Below, piece after piece: positions 381-26,992 of a stretch of DNA of 35,983 nt. Numbering within the stretch: the stretch's first letter is position 1; each line of letters starts with the position of its first letter. Origin of the DNA: Patescibacteria group bacterium. Lineage in GTDB: Bacteria > Patescibacteriota > Microgenomatia > UBA1406 > GWC2-37-13. The translations under genes were made by a program, and so were the position numbers. The DNA is taken from contig JAMCTE010000036.1 of assembly GCA_023381015.1 (NCBI GenBank), positions 1 to 35,983 of the forward strand, written 5' to 3'. A model generated the notes under the pieces. It worked only from the letters and a program-made list of their open reading frames with translations, did no database searches and was not told the origin of the DNA.

Positions 381-1325
381 ATGGACAGAAACCTTGCTTT
401 AGAATTCGTCCGGGTTACCGAAGCCGCTGCCATTGCTTCTGCCCACTGGGTAGGCCGCGGAGAAAAAAACAAAGCCGACGGTGCCGCAGTTGAGGCGATG
501 AGAAAAAGATTCAATCTGGTTGATTTCAAAGGTACGGTCGTCATCGGGGAGGGTGAAAAAGACGAAGCACCGATGCTTTTTACCGGAGAAAAAGTCGGTA
601 CGGGTAAAGGGCCGGAAATGGATCTGGCCATCGATCCATTGGAGTGTACCGACAGCGTCGCCAATGGCAGATATAATGCCATGGCGGTCATCGCCGCCGG
701 ACGAAAAGGCTCGCTCCTCCACGCACCCGACACCTATATGGAAAAAATTGCCGTCGGTAAGTTGGCGCGAAAAGTCATTGATCTTGACGCTCCCGTCAAG
801 GACAACCTGAAAAAAATCGCCAAAGCCATAGACAAAAAAATTTCCGACGTCGTCGTCATGGTCCTCGACCGCGACCGCCACGAAGAATTGATCAAACAAA
901 TAAGACAGGCCGGGGCAAGAGTAAGATTGATAACCGACGGGGACGTTTCCTCGGCAATCGCCACTTGTTTTCCCGATTCCGGAGTTGACGTCGCCATGGG
1001 AATTGGTGGTTCGACCGAAGGAGTTTTGGCAGCCGTTGCTATCAAAGTCTTGGGCGGAGAAATCCTTTGCCGTTTCAAGCCAAAAAAAGACAGTGACATC
1101 GTAAAAATAAAAGATGCCGGCGTCAAAGATCTGAAAAAAATTTTCACTTCCGAGGACCTCGCCAAAGGCGAAGAACTGAGTTTTACCGCTACCGGAGTCA
1201 TTGAAGGTCCTTTACTCCAAGGAGTCGTCTTCGAAGAAAACAAAATCATCACTCACTCTGTCGTCACCAGAGGAATTTCTGGTACGATTAGATATATAAC
1301 AACTCACCATCACTTTTATAAATAA
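381..1325 (+). CDS. glpX: Class II fructose-1,6-bisphosphatase (GlpX)
   Basis: The 314-residue product fits the usual GlpX length. This cytoplasmic enzyme hydrolyses fructose-1,6-bisphosphate to fructose-6-phosphate, the committed step of gluconeogenesis. Visible family motifs are IGEGEKDEAPML (55-66), the metal/phosphate site DLAIDPLECT (81-90), MVLDRDRH near 160, and IGGSTEGV near 208. Most GlpX proteins read DPLEGT and GGSPEGV, so the Gly-to-Cys and Pro-to-Thr changes are small local oddities. It is the first gene of a glpX-gap-pgk run on the plus strand, with a TTGACA promoter upstream. No Shine-Dalgarno sequence precedes the ATG. The 3' end overlaps an intercistronic hairpin. Confidence 0.93.
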   Translation: MDRNLALEFVRVTEAAAIASAHWVGRGEKNKADGAAVEAMRKRFNLVDFKGTVVIGEGEKDEAPMLFTGEKVGTGKGPEMDLAIDPLECTDSVANGRYNAMAVIAAGRKGSLLHAPDTYMEKIAVGKLARKVIDLDAPVKDNLKKIAKAIDKKISDVVVMVLDRDRHEELIKQIRQAGARVRLITDGDVSSAIATCFPDSGVDVAMGIGGSTEGVLAAVAIKVLGGEILCRFKPKKDSDIVKIKDAGVKDLKKIFTSEDLAKGEELSFTATGVIEGPLLQGVVFEENKIITHSVVTRGISGTIRYITTHHHFYK

Positions 1326-1336
1326 TTTATGGTGAG
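1303..1336 (+). other. Intercistronic hairpin between glpX and gap
   Basis: CTCACCAT (1303-1310) pairs perfectly with ATGGTGAG (1329-1336) across an 18-base AT-rich loop that includes the glpX stop codon. The 3' arm holds GGTGAG, the only Shine-Dalgarno-like sequence before gap (ATG at 1349). There is no U-tract, so it is more likely a processing, stability or translation-control hairpin than a terminator. Confidence 0.5.
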
Positions 1337-1348
1337 CAAAGTCTAACC

Positions 1349-2362
1349 ATGAAAAAAATCAAAGTCGGTCTTAATGGTTTTGGACGGATTGGTAGAGCTT
1401 TTACCCGCATCGCACTGACAAGAGGAGCGTTTGATGTCGTTGCCATTAATACCAGAAAAACCGCCAATAAAATGATGGCATACCTTCTTCAACATGATTC
1501 CGTCTACAGAACTTTCGGCAAAAAAATCGAGGCGAAGACTGACGGCATCGTCGTCGACGGAAAGATCATTCCTTGCCTTTTGAACGACAAGCCGGAAAAC
1601 ATACCCTGGGACAAGTACGGCGTCGACGTCGTCGTTGACGCCACCGGAGCTTTTCCAAGGAAACCGGACTTGGAAAAACACCTGAAAGGCACCGTCAAAA
1701 AAGTAGTCTTGTCTGCTCCGGCCAAAGATGAAGAAACGCCACTGGTAGTTCTTGGAGTGAACGACGATACCTTCGATTTTAAAAAAGAAACCATCATCTC
1801 GATGGCGTCTTGTACCACTAACTGTTCGGCGCCGATGTTCAAGATCATCAACGACAATTTCAAGGTCGTTTCTGGTTTTCTAACGACGACCCATGCCATT
1901 ACCATTAGCCAAAGTTTGCTGGACGACGCCGGAAAAAAAGAAGACAGATCGAGAGCGGCTTTCGTCAACATTGTCCCGTCGACGACCGGCGCCGCCAAAG
2001 CGGTCGCCAAAGTCATTCCTTCGCTCACCGGAAAAGTCGACGGCATGTCGCTTCGCGTCCCGGTAGCTACCGGATCGATTACCGATATCGGTGCCGTTGT
2101 CGAAAAACCGACTACGGTTGAAGAAATCAACGCCCTTTTCGAGCAAGCGTCAAAAACGTCGATGAAAAAAGTTTTAGGTTACGAAAAAGAAGTATTGGTG
2201 TCATCTGATTTCATCCAATCCTCCTATTCGTGTATATTCGACGCCAACTACACCAAAGTCATCAACGGGAACTTTGTCAAAATCTTCGGCTGGTACGACA
2301 ATGAATGGGGTTACAGCACCAGGCTTGTTGATTTGGTTGAAAAGTTATCCGAGTTTGTTTAA
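1349..2362 (+). CDS. gap: Type I glyceraldehyde-3-phosphate dehydrogenase
   Basis: The 337-residue product matches type I GAPDH end to end. It interconverts glyceraldehyde-3-phosphate and 1,3-bisphosphoglycerate. The Rossmann motif NGFGRIGR is at 9-16, the catalytic cysteine is C155 in SCTTNC, the partner histidine is H182 in THAIT, and SWYDNE-like WYDNEWGYS lies near the C-terminus. After the second beta strand, the NAD-specific Asp of the usual AIND is replaced: the sequence reads AINTRK (32-37). Loss of that Asp plus a nearby Arg is what NADP-using, gluconeogenic GAPDHs show, so NADPH use is inferred. It lies between glpX and pgk. Confidence 0.95.
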   Translation: MKKIKVGLNGFGRIGRAFTRIALTRGAFDVVAINTRKTANKMMAYLLQHDSVYRTFGKKIEAKTDGIVVDGKIIPCLLNDKPENIPWDKYGVDVVVDATGAFPRKPDLEKHLKGTVKKVVLSAPAKDEETPLVVLGVNDDTFDFKKETIISMASCTTNCSAPMFKIINDNFKVVSGFLTTTHAITISQSLLDDAGKKEDRSRAAFVNIVPSTTGAAKAVAKVIPSLTGKVDGMSLRVPVATGSITDIGAVVEKPTTVEEINALFEQASKTSMKKVLGYEKEVLVSSDFIQSSYSCIFDANYTKVINGNFVKIFGWYDNEWGYSTRLVDLVEKLSEFV

Positions 2363-2365
2363 AAA

Positions 2366-2385
2366 CTCGTTAATATGTTAACGAG
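2366..2385 (+). other. Intercistronic hairpin between gap and pgk
   Basis: CTCGTTAA (2366-2373) and TTAACGAG (2378-2385) form a perfect 8-bp stem with a 4-base TATG loop, starting 3 bases after the gap stop. No U-run follows and pgk starts 14 bases later, so readthrough with processing or partial attenuation is more likely than full termination. A weak AGGT (2392-2395) precedes the pgk ATG. Confidence 0.55.
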
Positions 2386-2399
2386 CTGACTAGGTAAAC

Positions 2400-3581
2400 A
2401 TGAAAAAAGTCACCTATATTGACGAGGCGGATATAGAAAATAAGCGAGTTCTTGTCCGGGTCGATTTTGATGTTTCCCTCAATCCGGATTACACGATCGC
2501 CAATGACGTCAGAATCAAACAAAACCTACCGACCTTAGAATATCTTTTAAAAAACGGCAACCGCCTGATCTGTGTCGCCAAACTCAACCGACCGAAAACA
2601 AGAAACCCCGAACATTCTCTAAAACCGGTCGTAAAAAGACTGCAGGAATATTTACCAAATTATAAAATTAGATTGGTCGACGATTTCCTGACTTGCGACA
2701 AAAAAATCTTCAGCGAACAAAAACCCGACGAGATTATCGTCCTGGAAAACATCCGCTTCTATCCCCAGGAAAAAGATTACTCGACCATATTTGCCAAAAA
2801 ACTGGCCTCTCTTGCCGATGTTTTCGTCAACGACGGCTTCGCCGTTTCCCACCGGACCGACACTTCGGTAATCGGCCCGCCGAAATTCATTCCCGGCTAC
2901 GGGGGCCTTCTCCTCAAAAAGGAACTTGAGATGATTGATAAGGCGACCAAAAATCCGCAAAAACCGATTGTCGCCATAATCGGAGGCGCCAAGGTATCGA
3001 CCAAAATCGGGCTCGTCAACCGTCTGGTCAAGATCGTCGACTACCTAATCATCGGAGGAGGTTTAGCCAATACTTTCGTCTGCGCCCAAGGCCACAACGT
3101 CGGAAACAGCTTCTGCGAATACGAGTCGGTCCAGATGGCGCGGAAGTTGCTGGCTCTCGCGAAAAATAACCGGGCCTTTATCGTTTTGCCCGTCGACGCC
3201 CTCGTCGCCGCTAACAAAAACGACAAAGAAACGGAAGTGGCAAAAATAGAAAATATTCCCGCCAACAAATCGATCTTTGATATCGGTCCGGAAACCAAAG
3301 CGCAAATCGGCAACATCATCGCCAAGGCAAAAACAATTATCTGGAACGGGCCGGTTGGCTATTTTGAAAACCCGGTTTTTAAACAAGGAACCGACTTCAT
3401 CTACTACTCGATCGCCCAAAACGATCAAGCCGTCTCGATAGTCGGCGGCGGAGACACTCTGGCGGCAATCTCCAAGAAAGAATATCTCGACAAAATCACC
3501 CATATTTCGACTGGCGGTGGCGCCATGCTCGAGTACATCGAAAAAGGCACCCTTCCGGGAATCGAGGCTTTAAAAAGGTAG
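2400..3581 (+). CDS. pgk: Phosphoglycerate kinase
   Basis: The 393-residue product is normal length for PGK, which transfers phosphate between 1,3-bisphosphoglycerate and ADP. Visible family features are RVDFDVSLN (20-28), ENIRFYP near 117, FVNDGFAVSHR near 142, AIIGGAKVSTKI near 195, WNGPVGYFE near 315, and the C-terminal GGGDT and STGGGA nucleotide/phosphate loops. Two substrate-side motifs differ from textbook PGK: RVDFNVPL reads RVDFDVSL, and SHLGRP reads AKLNRP (60-65). The last genes of the run, gap and pgk, would act together either in glycolysis or, with glpX and aldolase, in gluconeogenesis. Confidence 0.95.
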   Translation: MKKVTYIDEADIENKRVLVRVDFDVSLNPDYTIANDVRIKQNLPTLEYLLKNGNRLICVAKLNRPKTRNPEHSLKPVVKRLQEYLPNYKIRLVDDFLTCDKKIFSEQKPDEIIVLENIRFYPQEKDYSTIFAKKLASLADVFVNDGFAVSHRTDTSVIGPPKFIPGYGGLLLKKELEMIDKATKNPQKPIVAIIGGAKVSTKIGLVNRLVKIVDYLIIGGGLANTFVCAQGHNVGNSFCEYESVQMARKLLALAKNNRAFIVLPVDALVAANKNDKETEVAKIENIPANKSIFDIGPETKAQIGNIIAKAKTIIWNGPVGYFENPVFKQGTDFIYYSIAQNDQAVSIVGGGDTLAAISKKEYLDKITHISTGGGAMLEYIEKGTLPGIEALKR

Positions 3582-9295: not shown

Positions 9296-10006
9296 TTATT
9301 TGTAGTTGACCCTTACTTCTTCGAGCCAAATCCCTTTCGGTCGAGCAAGCATAAAAACTATAACCGCGGCCAAGTCTTTAGGTTCCATGAATTTTTCAAA
9401 GACACCGGGAGCGAACTTTTCTCCTGTTTTGAAAAACAATCCGGTTTTCATCCCTGCTTGATAGATTCCGGAGACTTTGACATTAGTTTCCCGAAGGTCT
9501 TCCCTGATCACTTCGGTAAAACCCCTGACTCCCCACTTGCTCGCCGAGTAGACCGATTGACCGGGAGGAATCTTGTAACCTGAAGTCGAGGAGACATTGA
9601 TGACGGCCGCTTCGTCCTGTTTTTTTAAAACCGGCAAAACCAACCTGGTGATTTGTATCAAGCCGGTTAAGTTAGTAGCAATGACATCGCTGATGATCTG
9701 CTCCTCTATTTCCTCAACCGGCATTTTTTTCTGCCAGATGCCGGCAATATTCAGGAGCACGTCAACATTAATGAAATCGACGATTATCCTTTTGACGGTT
9801 TGCTTAATTTGATGAATGTCCTTAAGATCGCAAGGATAAACTTCAACTTTGACTCCCTTAATTTGTTTTTTTATTTTAGCCAGTCTATCTCTCCTTCTCG
9901 CAATCAATGCCAGATTGACTCCTTCCCGACTCAATCCAAAAGCAACCGCTTCACCTAAGCCGTCGCTTGCTCCGGTGATGATGGCCGTCTTCCCTTTTAA
10001 AATCAT
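9296..10006 (-). CDS. Short-chain dehydrogenase/reductase
   Basis: The 236-residue classical SDR shows the NAD(P) motif TGASDGLG (11-18), the basic ALIARRRDR after strand 2 (suggesting NADP preference), NIAG near 86, and the catalytic triad S140, Y153, K157 (YSASK). It reduces or oxidises a carbonyl/alcohol substrate in the cytoplasm. The substrate cannot be read from the sequence. It follows the 55-residue membrane protein by 20 bases on the same strand and may share its transcript. Confidence 0.88.
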   Translation of the reverse strand: MILKGKTAIITGASDGLGEAVAFGLSREGVNLALIARRRDRLAKIKKQIKGVKVEVYPCDLKDIHQIKQTVKRIIVDFINVDVLLNIAGIWQKKMPVEEIEEQIISDVIATNLTGLIQITRLVLPVLKKQDEAAVINVSSTSGYKIPPGQSVYSASKWGVRGFTEVIREDLRETNVKVSGIYQAGMKTGLFFKTGEKFAPGVFEKFMEPKDLAAVIVFMLARPKGIWLEEVRVNYK

Positions 10007-10026
10007 ATTGGCAGATAAATAACAAA

Positions 10027-10194
10027 CTATTTAATTTTACTACAGATACCCGTCGGTTTCGGCAGGTTTGGCCGGCCATGTTTTACCCAATTGCCGTTGA
10101 CGCAAATCCAGTCATCTTCTGGACCGCCGACGATAAACCTGAAAATAAAAATTGCCGCTCCAAATAGCAACAGAATAATGATGATTTTTCTCAC
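10027..10194 (-). CDS. Small CPR-type membrane protein with GGPEDDWIC...C motif
   Basis: A GTG start at 10194 opens a 55-residue reading frame ending in TAG at 10027. It has an N-terminal hydrophobic segment (about residues 3-22) and then GGPEDDWICVNGNWVKHG, PNLPKPTG and IC. The W-x-C-x-x-G-x-W-V-x-H-G...P-x-P...C pattern recurs in small proteins I recall from Patescibacteria, so it is called a real gene despite its size and GTG start. Two cysteines (31 and 51) would lie outside the membrane and may pair. The function is unknown. The 18-bp AT palindrome covers its start. Confidence 0.7.
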   Translation of the reverse strand: MRKIIIILLLFGAAIFIFRFIVGGPEDDWICVNGNWVKHGRPNLPKPTGICSKIK

Positions 10195-10210
10195 TTTAAT
10201 TAATTAAAGT
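10193..10210. repeat. 18-bp perfect AT-rich palindrome
   Basis: ACTTTAATT/AATTAAAGT is a perfect palindrome with no spacer. It lies between the Nudix stop (10225) and the GTG start of the small membrane protein, overlapping that start. It may be an operator or a weak hairpin; no regulator is identified. Confidence 0.5.
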
Positions 10211-10224
10211 TACACTTTTCCGTC

Positions 10225-10662
10225 TTAAAGATATTTTTTGAATTCATCTGGATAGTGTTTCAAAGTATACACCGCCCCTGTGTGCATTGGATGCGGAAGC
10301 TGATTTAAGTTAAACCAACCCAGTTCTGACATTTTTTCGGGAACGCCAATGACGACTTTGCTTCTATCAACTTTGACGATGAAAGTAATGATCAACCAAT
10401 GGGTCCTGGTTCTCTTTTCTTGCCTTAAAAGAGAATGGGCCGGTAACTGTTTTTCAATAAAGCCTTTGACGCCATACTCCTCCATCACTTCCCTCAATAC
10501 CGCTTTTTCCAAAGTTTCGCCAATCTCCAGTCTGCCGCCGCCGAAATCCCAATGTCCCCGTTCGTCTCGACATTTGTCTGATCTTTTATGAAGAAGAAAT
10601 TCTTTACCGTCATGACAGAAGAAAGAAACAGAAACTCCAATGAAATCTATTCCTGGCCTCAT
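10225..10662 (-). CDS. Nudix hydrolase
   Basis: The 145-residue product carries a complete Nudix box (Gx5Ex7REUxEExGU) at about residues 42-65: GRLEIGETLEKAVLREVMEE with GV following. This loop binds Mg2+ and cleaves nucleoside-diphosphate-linked compounds, for example MutT-type sanitation. HKRSDKCRDERGHWDFGGG upstream of the box is typical of the wide-specificity NUDIX branch. ATG 10662 (MRPGIDF) is chosen over a GTG at 10671, which would lie within the palindrome. A minus-strand TATAAT (10680-10675) inside the palindrome lies 12 bases upstream of this ATG. Confidence 0.9.
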   Translation of the reverse strand: MRPGIDFIGVSVSFFCHDGKEFLLHKRSDKCRDERGHWDFGGGRLEIGETLEKAVLREVMEEYGVKGFIEKQLPAHSLLRQEKRTRTHWLIITFIVKVDRSKVVIGVPEKMSELGWFNLNQLPHPMHTGAVYTLKHYPDEFKKYL

Positions 10663-10666
10663 AATT

Positions 10667-10698
10667 ATCACTTTATTATATTAATATAATAAAGTGAT
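10667..10698. repeat. 32-bp perfect palindrome between divergent Nudix and cupin genes
   Basis: The 16 bases 10667-10682 are the exact reverse complement of 10683-10698, with no central spacer. Each half contains a TATAAT, minus at 10680-10675 and plus at 10685-10690, so the palindrome presents a -10-like hexamer in both directions. It is almost all A+T except for one C and one G pair near each edge. It may be an operator with symmetric promoters. Confidence 0.65.
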
Positions 10699-10711
10699 TA
10701 CCATAATAAAT

Positions 10712-10717
10712 TATAAT
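10712..10717 (+). promoter_or_regulatory. -10 box of cupin gene, leaderless spacing
   Basis: A perfect TATAAT ends 6 bases before ATG 10724, so transcription should begin at or next to the start codon. GAAGG lies between the two but is too close to the ATG to act as a ribosome site. The 32-bp palindrome ends 13 bases upstream, covering the -35 position. Confidence 0.55.
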
Positions 10718-10723
10718 TGAAGG

Positions 10724-11086
10724 ATGAAGTATATTTCTGCCGGCGGAGGACGAGAGGTTGTTAAAAAAGATTATAAAAAAAGGATTATCTTTGAGCTAGA
10801 AGACTTCAAAGAGCCGGGACACTTACTCCAAATCGTTAATAATTTCGCAAAAACTAAACAATCATATCACCATCATAAAAAACAAACTGAAGTTTGGTAT
10901 ATTTTGGAAGGTGACGCAATCTGGAGGATAAATGGAGTTGAATATAGAGTAAAGCCCGGTGATGCTTTTATCATCAATCCAGGAGACAAACATCAAGCCG
11001 ACAATCAAAGTAATAAGGACATGAAAGTTTTAGTCTTGAAGATTAATTTTCCAAAAGACGATGAAGATTTTTATCTTGACGAATAA
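10724..11086 (+). CDS. Single-domain cupin
   Basis: The 120-residue cupin has both conserved motifs. Motif 1 is YHHHKKQTEVWYILEG (HxHx4Ex6G) near 49-63, and motif 2 is GDAFIINPGDKHQADN near 82-97. Together they supply the His/His/Glu/His metal set. The spacing resembles mannose-6-phosphate isomerase-type and related sugar-binding cupins, but the substrate cannot be assigned. It is divergent from the Nudix gene across a 32-bp palindrome and has its own -10 box. The converging TIM-like gene ends 3 bases after its stop. Confidence 0.88.
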   Translation: MKYISAGGGREVVKKDYKKRIIFELEDFKEPGHLLQIVNNFAKTKQSYHHHKKQTEVWYILEGDAIWRINGVEYRVKPGDAFIINPGDKHQADNQSNKDMKVLVLKINFPKDDEDFYLDE

Positions 11087-11089
11087 TGA

Positions 11090-11737
11090 TTATTGTTTAA
11101 AACCTCCTGCTAATTCACGAAGTTTCGCTCCAGGGTCAGGAGCGGTGACGAAATAGGTCGCCATTAAAACGCCGATCGCTCCGGCGGCTTTCGATTTTTT
11201 TGTGTCTTCGCCGTCATTGATGCCGGCACCTATTATCAAAGGATGCTTTAGTTTTTTGACTAGTTCTCTAATGGCCATTTCCTGTTGATCAATCATGGAG
11301 GTCGTACTGGCAATCAGGTCTTCTTTCTCGTAAGAAACAAGGTCCGCGTCAAGTTGGTCGTACTTTAAAACCATTTCCGGAGTCTGGCCGATAATCATTG
11401 TTTTTAAACCGTATTGTTTAGCTTTTTCAACGGTTTTTAAGACGGCATCCCCGGATAATTTGTGTTCGGAATGGTTGATTAAAACGCCGCTGGCTCCGGC
11501 CGACTTAACAGAATAAGGAGAAACCCAACCGGTGTTTTTGCCTGGATCGATCGGGTCAACGTGTTGAGCCCAGACTTCAATACCAAGTTCTTTTTTGATT
11601 TTATAGATATCGGTTGCCTGGGCAACGGCAATAATCGGCACTCCTGTTTCGCTCGAAACCGTTTTCACAGAAGAAAGAAGTTTCAAGACCGCGTCTCCGG
11701 TCGCCTGTTTATAGGTTTTCAAAGCCAGAAAAATCAT
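11090..11737 (-). CDS. Archaeal-type triosephosphate isomerase-like protein
   Basis: The 215-residue protein matches the short archaeal form of TIM: MIFLALKTY at the start, VWAQHVDPIDPGKNTGW, GVLINHSEH (catalytic His89), a Tyr-Glu pair at the catalytic Glu137 (SYEKED), and GAGINDGED near the phosphate loop. Lys7 is present. Two features differ. The oxyanion Asn of the usual NFKTY is Ala5 (LALKTY), and loop 6, normally YEPPELIGTG, reads YEKEDLIAST. It may be an active but altered TIM (DHAP/G3P interconversion) or a relative with another substrate. A TAAAAT ends 7 bases before its ATG. Confidence 0.8.
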   Translation of the reverse strand: MIFLALKTYKQATGDAVLKLLSSVKTVSSETGVPIIAVAQATDIYKIKKELGIEVWAQHVDPIDPGKNTGWVSPYSVKSAGASGVLINHSEHKLSGDAVLKTVEKAKQYGLKTMIIGQTPEMVLKYDQLDADLVSYEKEDLIASTTSMIDQQEMAIRELVKKLKHPLIIGAGINDGEDTKKSKAAGAIGVLMATYFVTAPDPGAKLRELAGGFKQ

Positions 11738-11744
11738 AGTCTTT

Positions 11745-11754
11745 ATTTTATAAT
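11745..11754. promoter_or_regulatory. Overlapping divergent -10 boxes (TIM-like and MFS genes)
   Basis: The starts of the TIM-like gene (11737, minus) and the MFS gene (11762, plus) are 24 bases apart. The minus strand has TAAAAT (11750-11745) 7 bases before its ATG. The plus strand has TATAAT (11749-11754) 7 bases before a GTG. The hexamers overlap by two bases, so the two promoters should exclude each other. Confidence 0.5.
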
Positions 11755-11761
11755 ATTTTAA

Positions 11762-12946
11762 GTGAAAAAAATTCCCAAAAACGTCGTCATCCTCGGAATC
11801 GTCAGTTTCTTCAACGACCTGTCTTCGGAAATGGTTTATCCGATCATACCGATTTTCCTCACCTCGGTCCTTAAAGCTTCCGTCCCAATTGTCGGATTGG
11901 TCGAAGGCGTCGCCGAGGCAACCTCAAGCATCTCCAAATATGTTTTTGGTGCCTTGGCCGACTATTTCAAAACCCGTAAACCTTTCGTATCCGCCGGATA
12001 TTTTTTGACGGCTTTTTCCAAGGTCATCATCGGCCTAGCAAAAAGTTGGCATTTGGTTCTTTTGGGTCGCTTTCTCGACCGGACCGGCAAAGGCGTGAGG
12101 ACCGCTCCTCGCGACAGCATTCTTCTTGAAAGCACCCAGCCTCACAACAAGGGATTTATCTTCGGATTTCACCGGGCTTTAGACAGCATCGGCGCTGTCT
12201 TCGGCCCGATACTCGCCCTTGTTTTTCTTTATCTGTTGAAAGAGAATATGCGTTGGATTTTTTTCATTGCTTTTATACCATCAATAATCGGGGTCCTGCT
12301 CTTGCTATTATTCGTCAACGAGAAAAAACAGACAACAAAAAACAAAAAAAAGTTTATCAAGATCAACTTCAAAACCCTTCACCCTTCGCTAAAGCTTTTC
12401 TTGATCGCCAGTTTTATCTTTTCTTTAGGCAACAGTTCAGATGCGTTTCTGATATTAAGGGCAAAAAATCTCGGCTTCTCCGTTCTTTTGACGACTTTGA
12501 CCTATGTCGTTTACAACATTTTTTATACGGTCTTCTCGACGCCGGCGGGCAGCCTAGCTGATAAAATCGGCGCCAAAAAAGTCTTTGGGATCGGACTATT
12601 GGCATTTGCCCTCGTCTACTTCTTTTTTGGTTTCATAAAAAATCCTGTCTTCCTCTGGATTTTGTTTCCCATATATGGAATATATATCGCCTTTACCGAC
12701 GGGGTTTCAAAAGCTTATGTGGCCGAGTTCATAAAAAAAGAAGAATCCGGCAGTTATTTCGGTCTCCATCAAACTCTTCTTGGCGTTGGAGCTTTTATCG
12801 CCTCAATTGTCGGCGGCATCATCTGGAGCGCTATCCATCCCGATGCCACCTTCTATTACGGAAGCGTCATGGCTATCCTGGCGCTTCTGATTTTTATTTT
12901 CAGTCGCAGATTCCTGTCAGGATTGTTGATGGAAAAGAATCAGTAG
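11762..12946 (+). CDS. MFS transporter
   Basis: The 394-residue protein starts with GTG and has about twelve hydrophobic segments. It begins VSFFNDLSSEMVYPIIPIFL and contains ISKYVFGALADYFKTRKPFV and the conserved LGRFLDRTGKGVRTAPRDSIL. This combination marks a widespread but poorly studied MFS branch annotated only as MFS transporter. The RTGKGxRxAPRD stretch lies between helices 4 and 5 of the first half. Its substrate is unknown. The end overlaps the converging YSWC-motif gene by 47 bases. Confidence 0.88.
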   Translation: MKKIPKNVVILGIVSFFNDLSSEMVYPIIPIFLTSVLKASVPIVGLVEGVAEATSSISKYVFGALADYFKTRKPFVSAGYFLTAFSKVIIGLAKSWHLVLLGRFLDRTGKGVRTAPRDSILLESTQPHNKGFIFGFHRALDSIGAVFGPILALVFLYLLKENMRWIFFIAFIPSIIGVLLLLLFVNEKKQTTKNKKKFIKINFKTLHPSLKLFLIASFIFSLGNSSDAFLILRAKNLGFSVLLTTLTYVVYNIFYTVFSTPAGSLADKIGAKKVFGIGLLAFALVYFFFGFIKNPVFLWILFPIYGIYIAFTDGVSKAYVAEFIKKEESGSYFGLHQTLLGVGAFIASIVGGIIWSAIHPDATFYYGSVMAILALLIFIFSRRFLSGLLMEKNQ

Positions 12947-24401: not shown

Positions 24402-24743
24402 ATGAGAAAATTCTGCCAACCGGTAATTGTCGAAAATTTTTTTGAACCCTGCCTTCTCTATCTGCTTCTGAAAAACCCCAGTTATGGCTACGAATTAAAC
24501 AAGGATCTCAAAAATAACTGTGAATGCCAGGTCAACATCGGCAACCTTTATCGGGGATTGGACCGATTGGTAAAGACCGGTTGCGTGACGAAAAAAAAAT
24601 CGGACAGCGACCTCGGCCCGGCAAAAATCATCTACAAAATCACCCCTAAAGGAAAAACTCATTTGGCAACCTGGATCAAAAACCTGGAAAAACAGAACCA
24701 GATCATCGGCAAGTTAGTTACAAATTACAAAAAAATCTTATGA
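24402..24743 (+). CDS. PadR-family transcriptional regulator
   Basis: The 113-residue protein is a PadR-type winged helix. It has EPCLLYLLLKNPSYGYELNKDL, then INIGNLYRGLDRLVKTGCVTKK (the recognition helix region with the usual xLYRxLxRLxxxG), and AKIIYKITPKGKTHL forming the wing. Most PadR proteins repress nearby genes and respond to small molecules or stress. Its stop overlaps the glutaredoxin start by 4 bases, so it co-regulates that gene and possibly itself through the upstream inverted repeat. Confidence 0.9.
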   Translation: MRKFCQPVIVENFFEPCLLYLLLKNPSYGYELNKDLKNNCECQVNIGNLYRGLDRLVKTGCVTKKKSDSDLGPAKIIYKITPKGKTHLATWIKNLEKQNQIIGKLVTNYKKIL

Positions 24744-24982
24744 AAAAACAAAAAAAGGTCAAAGTGTTCTCGACCCCGACTTGTCCATATTGCTTTATGG
24801 TCAAAGCGTACTTGAAGGAAAAAAACGTCGCTTACGAAGATGTTGACGTTTCCGTCGACCAAAACGAGGCCATCGCCATGGTACAAAAATCAGGACAGAT
24901 GGGAGTCCCCCAACTTTGGATAGAAGATGACATCGTCGTCGGCTTCAACAAACCGGTAATAGACCAACTACTGAATCTTTGA
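24740..24982 (+). CDS. Glutaredoxin-like thiol-disulfide protein (NrdH/YruB type)
   Basis: The 80-residue protein is a minimal thioredoxin fold with active site CPYC (C15, C18) in STPTCPYCFM, the cis-Pro loop GVPQLWI, and a closing VVGF...LL helix. It reduces disulfides or carries electrons, for example to a ribonucleotide reductase, in the cytoplasm. The CPYC dipeptide and short form fit the glutaredoxin/NrdH group. It is coupled to padR (ATGA overlap). A promoter for the next gene starts within its last codons. Confidence 0.92.
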   Translation: MKKQKKVKVFSTPTCPYCFMVKAYLKEKNVAYEDVDVSVDQNEAIAMVQKSGQMGVPQLWIEDDIVVGFNKPVIDQLLNL

Positions 24983-25072
24983 TTGTAAGAAAGATTCTGT
25001 TATGATTTGCGAAGACGCCCCGAAATTTATTTTTTAACCGTTAATTTTTTTGGGGGCTGTTTTATATAACAG
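24979..25072 (+). promoter_or_regulatory. Promoter and structured 5' leader of the YcaO-TPR gene
   Basis: TTGATT (24979-24984) and TATGAT (25001-25006) are 16 bp apart. The predicted leader of about 66 bases has two possible stems: GCCCC (25017-25021) with GGGGC (25053-25057), and CTGTT (25057-25061) with AACAG (25068-25072), just before ATG 25079. A TATAAC at 25065-25070 could instead give a second, nearly leaderless start. Confidence 0.45.
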
Positions 25073-25078
25073 ATTTCA

Positions 25079-26992
25079 ATGATAATCAGGGATAGCTTTA
25101 AAACATTCAGTCAAGGAATCGGCAAAGTCGTCTCTCCTAAAAAAACCGCCAAAGCCGTCCTAAAAAAACTTCGCCTGATAACCCCGCCAATCCTTGCCGG
25201 TTTTTACGAAGTCCGCCGTCCCAGCCGAATTCCCCAGTACCGTTTTATCGGCACCGCCCGTTTTCAGCAGATTGTTCACGGCAAAGGAACTAATGGCAAA
25301 GGACATTTCCGCGAACAAGCTCAGGCGAGCGGTAGTGTGGAATTTGCCGAAAGATACTCTTGCTTCCGGTACCTGCGTGACCCTAAATCACAAAAGATAA
25401 TGTCTTTTAGCGAGCTAAAAAATAACGCTTTTAAGACTGACGATTTGTTTGCCGATTTTATCGATCCTTCCGAAGCAGCCATACTTAAAAATAAAGAAAT
25501 CGAATCGGCAAAAATCCGATTTATTGCCGGCTATACTCTATCGGGCAAAAAAGTGTTTATCCCCATGAATCTAATCGCCTACCTGATCGAAGGAACCAAC
25601 GGAATGGCCGCCGGCAACTCTCTTGAAGAAGCGCTGCTTCACGCCATCTGTGAGGTAATGGAAAGGCACTGTCTTTCGCTCATCGACGTCAATAGATTGA
25701 CGACTCCTCTTATTGATCAGTCAACGATAAAATTCCCCATCGTAAAATCGTTGCTCAAGAAATTCCAAAGACTCCATCAACCGGTTTTCATCAAAGATTT
25801 TTCTTTGGGAATAGGACTGCCGACAATCGGGGCAATCAGGATGATAAACCGCACCAGTTGCATGATAACGGCCGGGGTGGCAACCAGCCGTGAAGAAGCA
25901 TTGATCAGGGCTTTGACCGAAAACTCCCAGTGCGAAGATAAAAGTAACTTCATCAAAATCAAATCCGCCAAATATTATTTGGCCAATAAGAAAACCGTTT
26001 CCATCAACGACATTTCCGACATCGACAACGACAATATAAAATTGGAGCTCGACAAGATCTATAAGATACTAAAGAAAAATGCCATGGAAGTATTTTTTGT
26101 TGACTCGACAGACAAGGTTTTAAAAATTCCAAGCGTCGTTGTCTATATATCGGGTGCCAAGTACTTCGTCAAAACCATTGCGTTTAGAAATATCATCACG
26201 GGTTTGATCGAAGAGAGTCTGGCAACGGAGAATTATCGTGATGCCAGAAAACATTTGAGGAAAGCAACTGAATCGGACAAAAAAAACCAGCTCGTTTACC
26301 TCTACTACCAAGGAGTGATTAACAAGCGTTTTTCCCGTTATGAACTAGCTAAAAAATATTTTAGCAAAAGTAAATCGACGACTATCAGGGAACTTCGCCG
26401 TTCAAGCTTGATCAATCTCGGGCATTGTTATCAAGCAACAAACAACATCGATCAAGCGATAGACTATTGCCTGGAAGTGATCGACCGGTTTCCAGAATTC
26501 AGCATTGAATATCTACAATCAAACTATGACACGATTTCCTTATTGGCCAAAGACAAAACACTCTTCTCAATTTTTAAAAAATTATTCTACCAAGTTAAAC
26601 TCGTCAGAGGTTATTATCCAAAAGTTGGCGCTTTCCAGTTCAAACTTAAGTTTTTTGAATATATGAAAAGCGAAAAAACCATACCGGTTCTTCTCAATGA
26701 GGCAAAAAATTATTACGCCGACCGCGATTACCTGCAATCGATCGATCGGCTAAAAAAAATCCTAAATTCCAGTCAAGTCGCCTCACGAATTCATAACGTC
26801 TACCTTCTTATTGGTTTTTGTTTAGAAAAAACCGGCCAGTACCGTCGAGCCATATTTTATTTCAAAAAGGCCTTAACAATCGACCCGGGAAGATCACAAA
26901 TATTATTTTCACTTTCGCAGTGCTATCGGAAAATCGGCGATGACAAATTGGCAAATGAAACAATGGACCGAGGAATCAAGTCATCTGGTTGA
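25079..26992 (+). CDS. YcaO-domain protein fused to C-terminal TPR repeats
   Basis: The 637-residue protein has a YcaO domain (about 45-370). ATP-site motifs are HGKGTNGKG (68-75), QASGSVEFAERYSC (82-95), GTNGMAAGNSLEEALLHAI (172-190) with EVMERH, and GVATSREEALIRALTENSQ (266-284). YcaO enzymes phosphorylate a backbone amide to make azolines, thioamides or other peptide changes; the E. coli protein assists RimO methylthiolation of ribosomal protein S12. The C-terminal part (about 375-637) is a run of helical TPR-like repeats, including NVYLLIGFCLEKTGQYRRAIFYFKKAL, that may hold a partner or substrate. A C-terminal PxPxP end is absent. No precursor peptide or E1-like partner was recognised nearby. 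Confidence 0.8.
   Translation: MIIRDSFKTFSQGIGKVVSPKKTAKAVLKKLRLITPPILAGFYEVRRPSRIPQYRFIGTARFQQIVHGKGTNGKGHFREQAQASGSVEFAERYSCFRYLRDPKSQKIMSFSELKNNAFKTDDLFADFIDPSEAAILKNKEIESAKIRFIAGYTLSGKKVFIPMNLIAYLIEGTNGMAAGNSLEEALLHAICEVMERHCLSLIDVNRLTTPLIDQSTIKFPIVKSLLKKFQRLHQPVFIKDFSLGIGLPTIGAIRMINRTSCMITAGVATSREEALIRALTENSQCEDKSNFIKIKSAKYYLANKKTVSINDISDIDNDNIKLELDKIYKILKKNAMEVFFVDSTDKVLKIPSVVVYISGAKYFVKTIAFRNIITGLIEESLATENYRDARKHLRKATESDKKNQLVYLYYQGVINKRFSRYELAKKYFSKSKSTTIRELRRSSLINLGHCYQATNNIDQAIDYCLEVIDRFPEFSIEYLQSNYDTISLLAKDKTLFSIFKKLFYQVKLVRGYYPKVGAFQFKLKFFEYMKSEKTIPVLLNEAKNYYADRDYLQSIDRLKKILNSSQVASRIHNVYLLIGFCLEKTGQYRRAIFYFKKALTIDPGRSQILFSLSQCYRKIGDDKLANETMDRGIKSSG

Follow-up and report, generated by a model that had tools for sequence, protein, structure and literature searches.

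The genome of a Patescibacteria group bacterium (assembly GCA_023381015.1) harbors an intact gene for a YcaO enzyme with a C-terminal TPR region, which belongs to a known but uncharacterised family represented by DVU2210 of Desulfovibrio (Nitratidesulfovibrio) vulgaris Hildenborough and was probably borrowed. The gene lies on contig JAMCTE010000036.1, whose entire 35,983 nucleotides constitute the window analysed here. The best explanation, to which as a whole we give slightly more credence than doubt, is that an intact DVU2210-type enzyme was horizontally acquired and would thioamidate a trans-encoded peptide with the aid of its TPR arm. The architecture of the enzyme is ordinary, and it is the gene neighborhoods of its relatives that are informative. 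The suspicion voiced in the original prediction that this is a CPR genome fits the size of the assembly (1.06 Mb, 84% complete) and of its relatives (0.5–1.8 Mb).

The Pfam YcaO profile matched residues 72–360 of the 637-aa window protein with 164.3 bits against a cut-off of 25.7 (E 5.7e-48), and several Pfam TPR models matched within residues 381–632, giving a C-terminal TPR region of ∼270 residues (Table 1). The fusion of YcaO and TPR parts predicted from the bare sequence was hence confirmed in an intact ORF, the start codon of which matches those of its relatives L064 and L065, as both alignments start at residue 1. The general YcaO kinase-domain model of NCBIfam, TIGR00702, was passed (95 versus 75.65), and the more specific models scored below their cut-offs, namely, the S12/uL16-type model NF040716 (69.5 versus 700 bits) and the SagD model TIGR03604 (64.7 versus 219.25 bits). 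The protein was aligned with 49 relatives chosen from the loci kept after the collection scan described below, and in this 50-row alignment the residues K74, E88, E91, R92, N180, E184, E192, E195, R196, R277, E281, and Q284 were identical in all 50 rows, in keeping with the predicted intactness of the ATP motifs. The second ATP-site stretch contains the invariant positions G175, G179, N180, E184, E192, E195, R196, and H197 (50/50 rows), and its position 188 is Q in 48 rows and H in two. All three stretches align with the corresponding ones of E. coli YcaO, the first with NGKG...ExxER. With the profile score over the cut-off and the ATP/Mg-binding residues conserved, the window protein is a member of the YcaO superfamily (PF02624), for which ATP-dependent activation of the amide (backbone carbonyl) is established. 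A C-terminal PxPxP is a feature of the TOMM cyclodehydratases; it is absent from the window protein, which ends in DRGIKSSG, as had been noticed at the outset.

Table 1. Features of the YcaO-TPR gene and its upstream region (positions in the window)
Feature	Position	Strand	Basis or remark
PadR-family regulator, neighbor outside the system	24402..24743	+	Pfam PadR
YruB-family glutaredoxin-like protein, neighbor outside the system	24740..24982	+	TIGR02196, 88.8 bits versus cut-off 88.55
Promoter-like TTGATT-16-TATGAT	24979..25006	+	9/12 matches; probably the promoter of the original prediction
TATAAC, possible −10 element of a leaderless transcript	25065..25070	+	Ends 8 nt before ATG
YcaO-TPR gene, 637 aa	25079..26992	+	Uninterrupted ORF; Pfam YcaO and TPR
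YcaO catalytic domain, residues 1–366 (Pfam core 72–360)	25079..26176	+	Pfam, AlphaFold model, structural match
ATP-site stretch 1, residues 73–92 (GKG...Q80, S84...E88xxE91R92)	25295..25354	+	Invariant positions, 50/50 rows
ATP-site stretch 2, residues 175–197 (GMAAGNSLEEALLHAICEVMERH)	25601..25669	+	50-row alignment
ATP-site stretch 3, residues 277–284 (RALTENSQ)	25907..25930	+	R277, E281, Q284 invariant, 50/50 rows
C-terminal TPR region, residues 367–637	26177..26989	+	Pfam TPR models, modelled hairpins, TPR structure matches

The 50-row alignment also served as input for an AlphaFold model, which had a mean pLDDT of 83.4, with residues 481–540 poorly modelled, and showed helical hairpins at residues 369–636. 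The top VIA-align match to the model was MJ1094 (6peu; Z 37.9, 330 residues, rmsd 2.5), followed by M. kandleri YcaO (Z 33.6) and LynD (Z 33.2), the two being tied, and by E. coli YcaO (30.8). The last of these (4q86_E) aligned with the model over 444 residues covering both domains, with an rmsd of 6.6, and the C-terminal region resembled TPR structures with Z up to ∼16. The closest solved folds are those of the archaeal McrA YcaOs (MJ1094 and M. kandleri), whose chemistry is that of thioamides; unlike the window protein, they have no TPR region, and the score of the window protein with the McrA-type model TIGR03266 was 107.7 bits, below the cut-off of 365.

The architecture is not new, as it is known from DVU2210, annotated as a "YcaO-like, TPR domain protein" of unknown function (PMC7774982). 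Like the window protein, DVU2210 consists of a YcaO domain followed by TPR and carries the same ATP-site signature. The window protein shows the same domain order, can be aligned with the DVU2210-type family end to end, and groups with it in the tree; proteins resembling DVU2210 orthologues (L126, L132, and L137) fall into its sister clade and are ∼25–28% identical to it. Loss of DVU2210 alters molybdate sensitivity, the mutant being resistant in a delta-sat background (PMC7774982), and the gene is among those mutated in evolved syntrophic cultures (PMC8319347).

To place the gene, a species-genome collection was scanned with patterns of the window protein and the published DVU2210 motif, which gave at least 406 confirmed relatives among 587 stretches, a number that under-samples the family, and the best 80 loci were kept. 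Among these best 80 of at least 406 relatives, 51 aligned to query residue 412 or beyond, and the full-length relatives among the matches listed were mostly named Deltaproteobacteria or Desulfobacterota, the enzyme type occurring chiefly in sulfate reducers. The closest of the matches listed were L064 and L065, both from Deltaproteobacteria MAGs, with an identity of 35–40%; L064 is 35% identical over 622 aa and thus alignable over nearly the full length. Close relatives were absent from a first viral-contig scan and a first genome-contig scan. When viral contigs were scanned again, now with the DVU2210 motif, 13 YcaO loci emerged, all distant, and phage and plasmid collections held distant YcaOs, none of which covered 80% of the query.

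The phylogenetic tree was built from 104 of 116 YcaO domain sequences, E. coli YcaO included, and contains long branches; 12 sequences were left out as fragmentary, near-duplicate, or poorly matching (L119, L125, L131, L121, two of L062, L060, L061, L042, L043, L040, and the short second copy in L009). The window protein grouped with L064 and L065 (support 100/99), and these three grouped with three Elusimicrobia copies (98/91). The sister group is a clade of 61 rows, mostly Thermodesulfobacteriota/Deltaproteobacteria and including Nitratidesulfovibrio proteins, and the DVU2210-type group as a whole comprises 67 rows (97/88), apart from the E. coli, TOMM, and CPR YcaOs. Tandem YcaO-TPR genes occur in an Elusimicrobia contig (L073 1328–5409), and a third copy is present on another contig (L128). 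In the phylogeny against other YcaOs for which the original prediction had called, E. coli YcaO was distant, and what the window protein joined was the DVU2210-type group. The two grounds on which the original prediction could have fallen, missing ATP ligands and grouping with known degraded YcaOs, did not overturn it: the protein has the ligands in place, and the whole group joined by it keeps them.

The distribution among kin was examined in three overlapping samples, one comprising 57 relatives and the others 373 genomes from the class and 379 from the phylum. No full-length relative was found in any of them, and matches outside the own genome ended by residue 359. Of the 72 genomes scanned in the family, 15 contained a YcaO, the own genome among them; of the 20 within the genus, it was the only one. 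The four longest of these CPR YcaOs, similar in length to the window protein (G069:C3, G076, G075, and G069:C4), were considered as YcaO-TPR candidates and discarded, as Pfam does not detect TPR in any of the four; two of them, G069:C3 and G076, gave weak matches to SagC/leader-binding models. In two CPR genomes, YcaOs with a SagC-like N-terminal part (L028 1360–10846 and L030 9538–17558) are flanked by repeated gene pairs coding for proteins of ∼460 aa and 505–525 aa.

Forcing the window protein into one clade with the YcaOs of its own kin was rejected in a 38-row test (lnL difference 123, p-AU 4e-79). The window gene is best read as horizontally acquired and since ameliorated; its codon usage is like that of the rest of the contig (z −0.3), hence the transfer is not recent. 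A DVU2210-type YcaO-TPR gene would have passed from a Desulfobacterota-like bacterium to the CPR-like lineage, the direction being taken from the distribution only. The CPR copy illustrates that a minimal genome can take up an enzyme of this kind and preserve it intact. It also cautions against taking every CPR YcaO for a McrA helper, a reading suggested in PMC12153355, where five YcaO proteins in CPR clusters are tied to McrA.

The gene neighborhoods were counted in 74 of the 80 kept loci, those with the YcaO ORF at E below 1e-20, as raw counts uncorrected for kinship. LarE is located directly upstream in 6/74 loci, all six over the LarE cut-off; these belong to one clade, and the linkage could be hitchhiking. 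DsrC/TusE occurs within two genes in 7/74 loci from two clades, and all five of these that were scanned with NCBIfam were over the cut-off. TsaE is found up to four genes upstream in 13/74 loci, which is probably hitchhiking, and a DUF2934/DUF5335 protein lies directly upstream in 7/74. An Elusimicrobia copy is followed by two PP-loop proteins and preceded by two radical SAM proteins. TfuA had no match among the scanned neighbors or in the 84%-complete own genome, with a control that responded in 1 of 14. Among the papers listed from the open-licence PMC literature, a link of YcaO-TPR proteins to LarE or DsrC was not recognised, and TPR passages were not found in PMC5589413 and PMC4603692. The recurrent LarE, DsrC, and peptide-leader neighbors provide named candidates for the sulfur donor and the substrate, testable in the culturable Desulfovibrio.

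Both of the nearest listed relatives are tied to peptide maturation. In L064, the YcaO gene is preceded by a radical SAM/SPASM maturase and a Gly-Gly-leader ORF of 72 aa (53 if an inner start is used), and L065 has, besides three leader ORFs, a peptide-maturation protein resembling TIGR04500 (51.7 of 180 bits). A 26-residue leader query matched at 10 places in the genome of L064 and at six in that of L065, of which three lie on the contig with the YcaO gene; it matched nowhere in the 84%-complete genome of the window or in the Elusimicrobia genome. At another site of the L064 genome, B12-type radical SAM proteins and a further YcaO are found near a leader ORF. Within the leader-peptide clusters, several larger proteins that open with a leader-peptide-like MA[RK]I.IKDL stretch, one of them a YcaO, were observed at L065 833–2169 and 4499–6298 and at L174 7340–13587. 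Although L064 and L065 are of the same clade as the window protein, the window gene does not stand beside such leader ORFs and peptide-maturation genes and is itself an orphan: in agreement with the original prediction, the ORF lists and a leader-motif scan of the window revealed no precursor-like short ORF beside it, and the proposed genome search for precursors yielded no Gly-Gly-leader gene in the window or in the 84%-complete genome. Of the two targets first suggested, the evidence lies nearer to a putative host-directed peptide, as both of these relatives are situated in Gly-Gly-leader clusters.

The mechanism can be outlined as follows. With its intact site and YcaO fold, the window protein probably binds ATP and phosphorylates a peptide-bond carbonyl. 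A sulfur nucleophile would most likely attack next and leave a backbone thioamide, a chemistry that is our best guess for the enzyme and is preferred because archaeal thioamidases provide the best folds, E. coli YcaO is a uL16 thioamidase, and the relatives have sulfur-carrier genes. Instead of an RRE partner, it is most likely the TPR region that binds the substrate, joins two subunits, or does both; the TPR domain of E. coli YcaO serves as the model for this arm. The enzyme would probably act on a small protein or peptide whose gene lies at another site in the genome and which resembles those matured by L064 and L065. Against the thioamide step counts the structural match to LynD, which forms azolines rather than thioamides; this match is about as close as that to M. 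kandleri YcaO and closer than that to E. coli YcaO. Against the explanation as a whole counts that no adjacent sulfur donor is encoded in the window and that neither TfuA nor a leader like those of L064/L065 was found in the 84%-complete genome. The substrate and chemistry may also have changed, as the identity to the nearest listed relatives is only 35–43%. A wider proposal, which we offer tentatively and consider rather doubtful, is that the family constitutes a separate branch of thioamidases that takes sulfur of the LarE or DsrC type rather than via TfuA and uses the TPR arm instead of a peptide-binding partner, with one sub-branch recruited for Gly-Gly-leader peptides and a CPR epibiont using such an enzyme on a peptide of its own or of its host.

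It is unlikely that the window protein is instead a RiPP maturase that forms azolines or another backbone heterocycle, rather than thioamides, on a trans-encoded peptide. The peptide clusters of L064 and L065 would suit this role, and the same genome holds a TOMM-like second YcaO accompanied by a SagB dehydrogenase and by an ORF of 55 aa that ends in Cys/Thr residues. However, the SagD score and the missing PxPxP separate the window protein from the TOMM cyclodehydratases, the adjacent C protein/RRE and precursor that accompany these are absent at the window locus, and the second YcaO has a candidate precursor of its own.

A role like that of E. coli YcaO, i.e., a thioamidase of the ribosomal protein uL16, or as a helper for S12, is quite improbable, which weakens the ribosomal target contemplated in the original prediction. 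In PMC13063428, E. coli YcaO is described as a uL16 thioamidase with a C-terminal TPR domain of 150 residues that mediates dimers and may help to bind uL16. The two proteins share the YcaO domain, the C-terminal TPR domain, and the lack of an RRE, E. coli YcaO, whose branch is long, falls on the DVU2210-type side of the tree, and the own genome encodes uL16 with the loop Met-Gly kept (VTMGAGKG). However, they are only ∼24% identical and distant in the tree, the S12/uL16-type model is far from its cut-off, and the window protein is basic (pI 9.67, in a window proteome whose median is 9.26), whereas E. coli YcaO is acidic (pI 4.38), as is the uL16 YcaO group (pI 4.4) according to PMC13063428. 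A uL16 role is unlikely owing to this difference in pI and to the patchy occurrence of the gene. The protein uL16 is universal, yet YcaO-TPR is absent from all other sampled kin genomes. Help in S12 modification is unlikely as the rimO search that had been proposed gave no RimO over the cut-off in the 84%-complete genome, its two best proteins (185.2 bits; the other in two pieces) being methylthiotransferase-like. Just as improbable is that the gene is a passenger kept after the loss of its substrate and now subject to decay or repurposing, which would suit an orphan in the only YcaO-bearing genome of 20 in its genus, with no leader peptide found, but is opposed by the open frame, full catalytic residues, and contig-like codon usage, which argue for selection over a long time.

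The upstream region does not bear out the claim of a separate promoter and a leader with two hairpins, which would set the gene apart from leaderless neighbors. Promoter-like sites were as frequent as in shuffled sequences (10 versus 8.1 ± 2.6), and no Rfam family reached the gathering score in the leader region. Folds of 69 nt and 96 nt had z of about −2.4 and −2.5, and a 117-nt stretch reaching into the gene had a z of −0.38. A structured leader or riboswitch is therefore unsupported, and a special leader was not accepted, because the promoter-like site does not exceed the chance level and the fold signal is lost once the gene start is included. The layout of the TATAAC element is the same as that of TATAAT at the neighboring genes of the window, hence the YcaO-TPR gene may be leaderless too. 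A TATAAT with five or six of six matches, ending 4–14 nt upstream, was found for 15 of the 31 genes that lack same-strand contact, a modest excess over shuffles (8.7 ± 2.4, maximum 17).

The neighbors of the YcaO-TPR gene in the window are the genes for the PadR regulator, the glutaredoxin, and a glyoxalase-like protein. The padR-glutaredoxin pair recurs in another genome of the genus, G014 (57.5% and 71% identity), with no YcaO following; it was hence ruled out as a YcaO partner, and its recurrence ties the contig to the genus. A search of the genus with the RibD_C-like flanking gene gave best matches of 34% and no synteny.

The second YcaO locus of the genome (L007, G000:C16:47001-67000, 9691–12543) is likely an azole-peptide cluster; its SagB dehydrogenase scores 149.2 bits versus 78.4, and its 55-aa ORF ends in SNCDTTACDT. 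Short ORFs from two family genomes, at L007 12376–12543 and L028 3406–3588, one of which ends in CRDGGGCNVCWP, have KxYQKP....KIKVS in common. Such ORFs were present in two of 20 sources scanned, the window included, and are a possible CPR family of precursor peptides near YcaOs. The window also contains, at 381–3581, the genes for a GlpX-type fructose-1,6-bisphosphatase, GAPDH, and PGK in a row.
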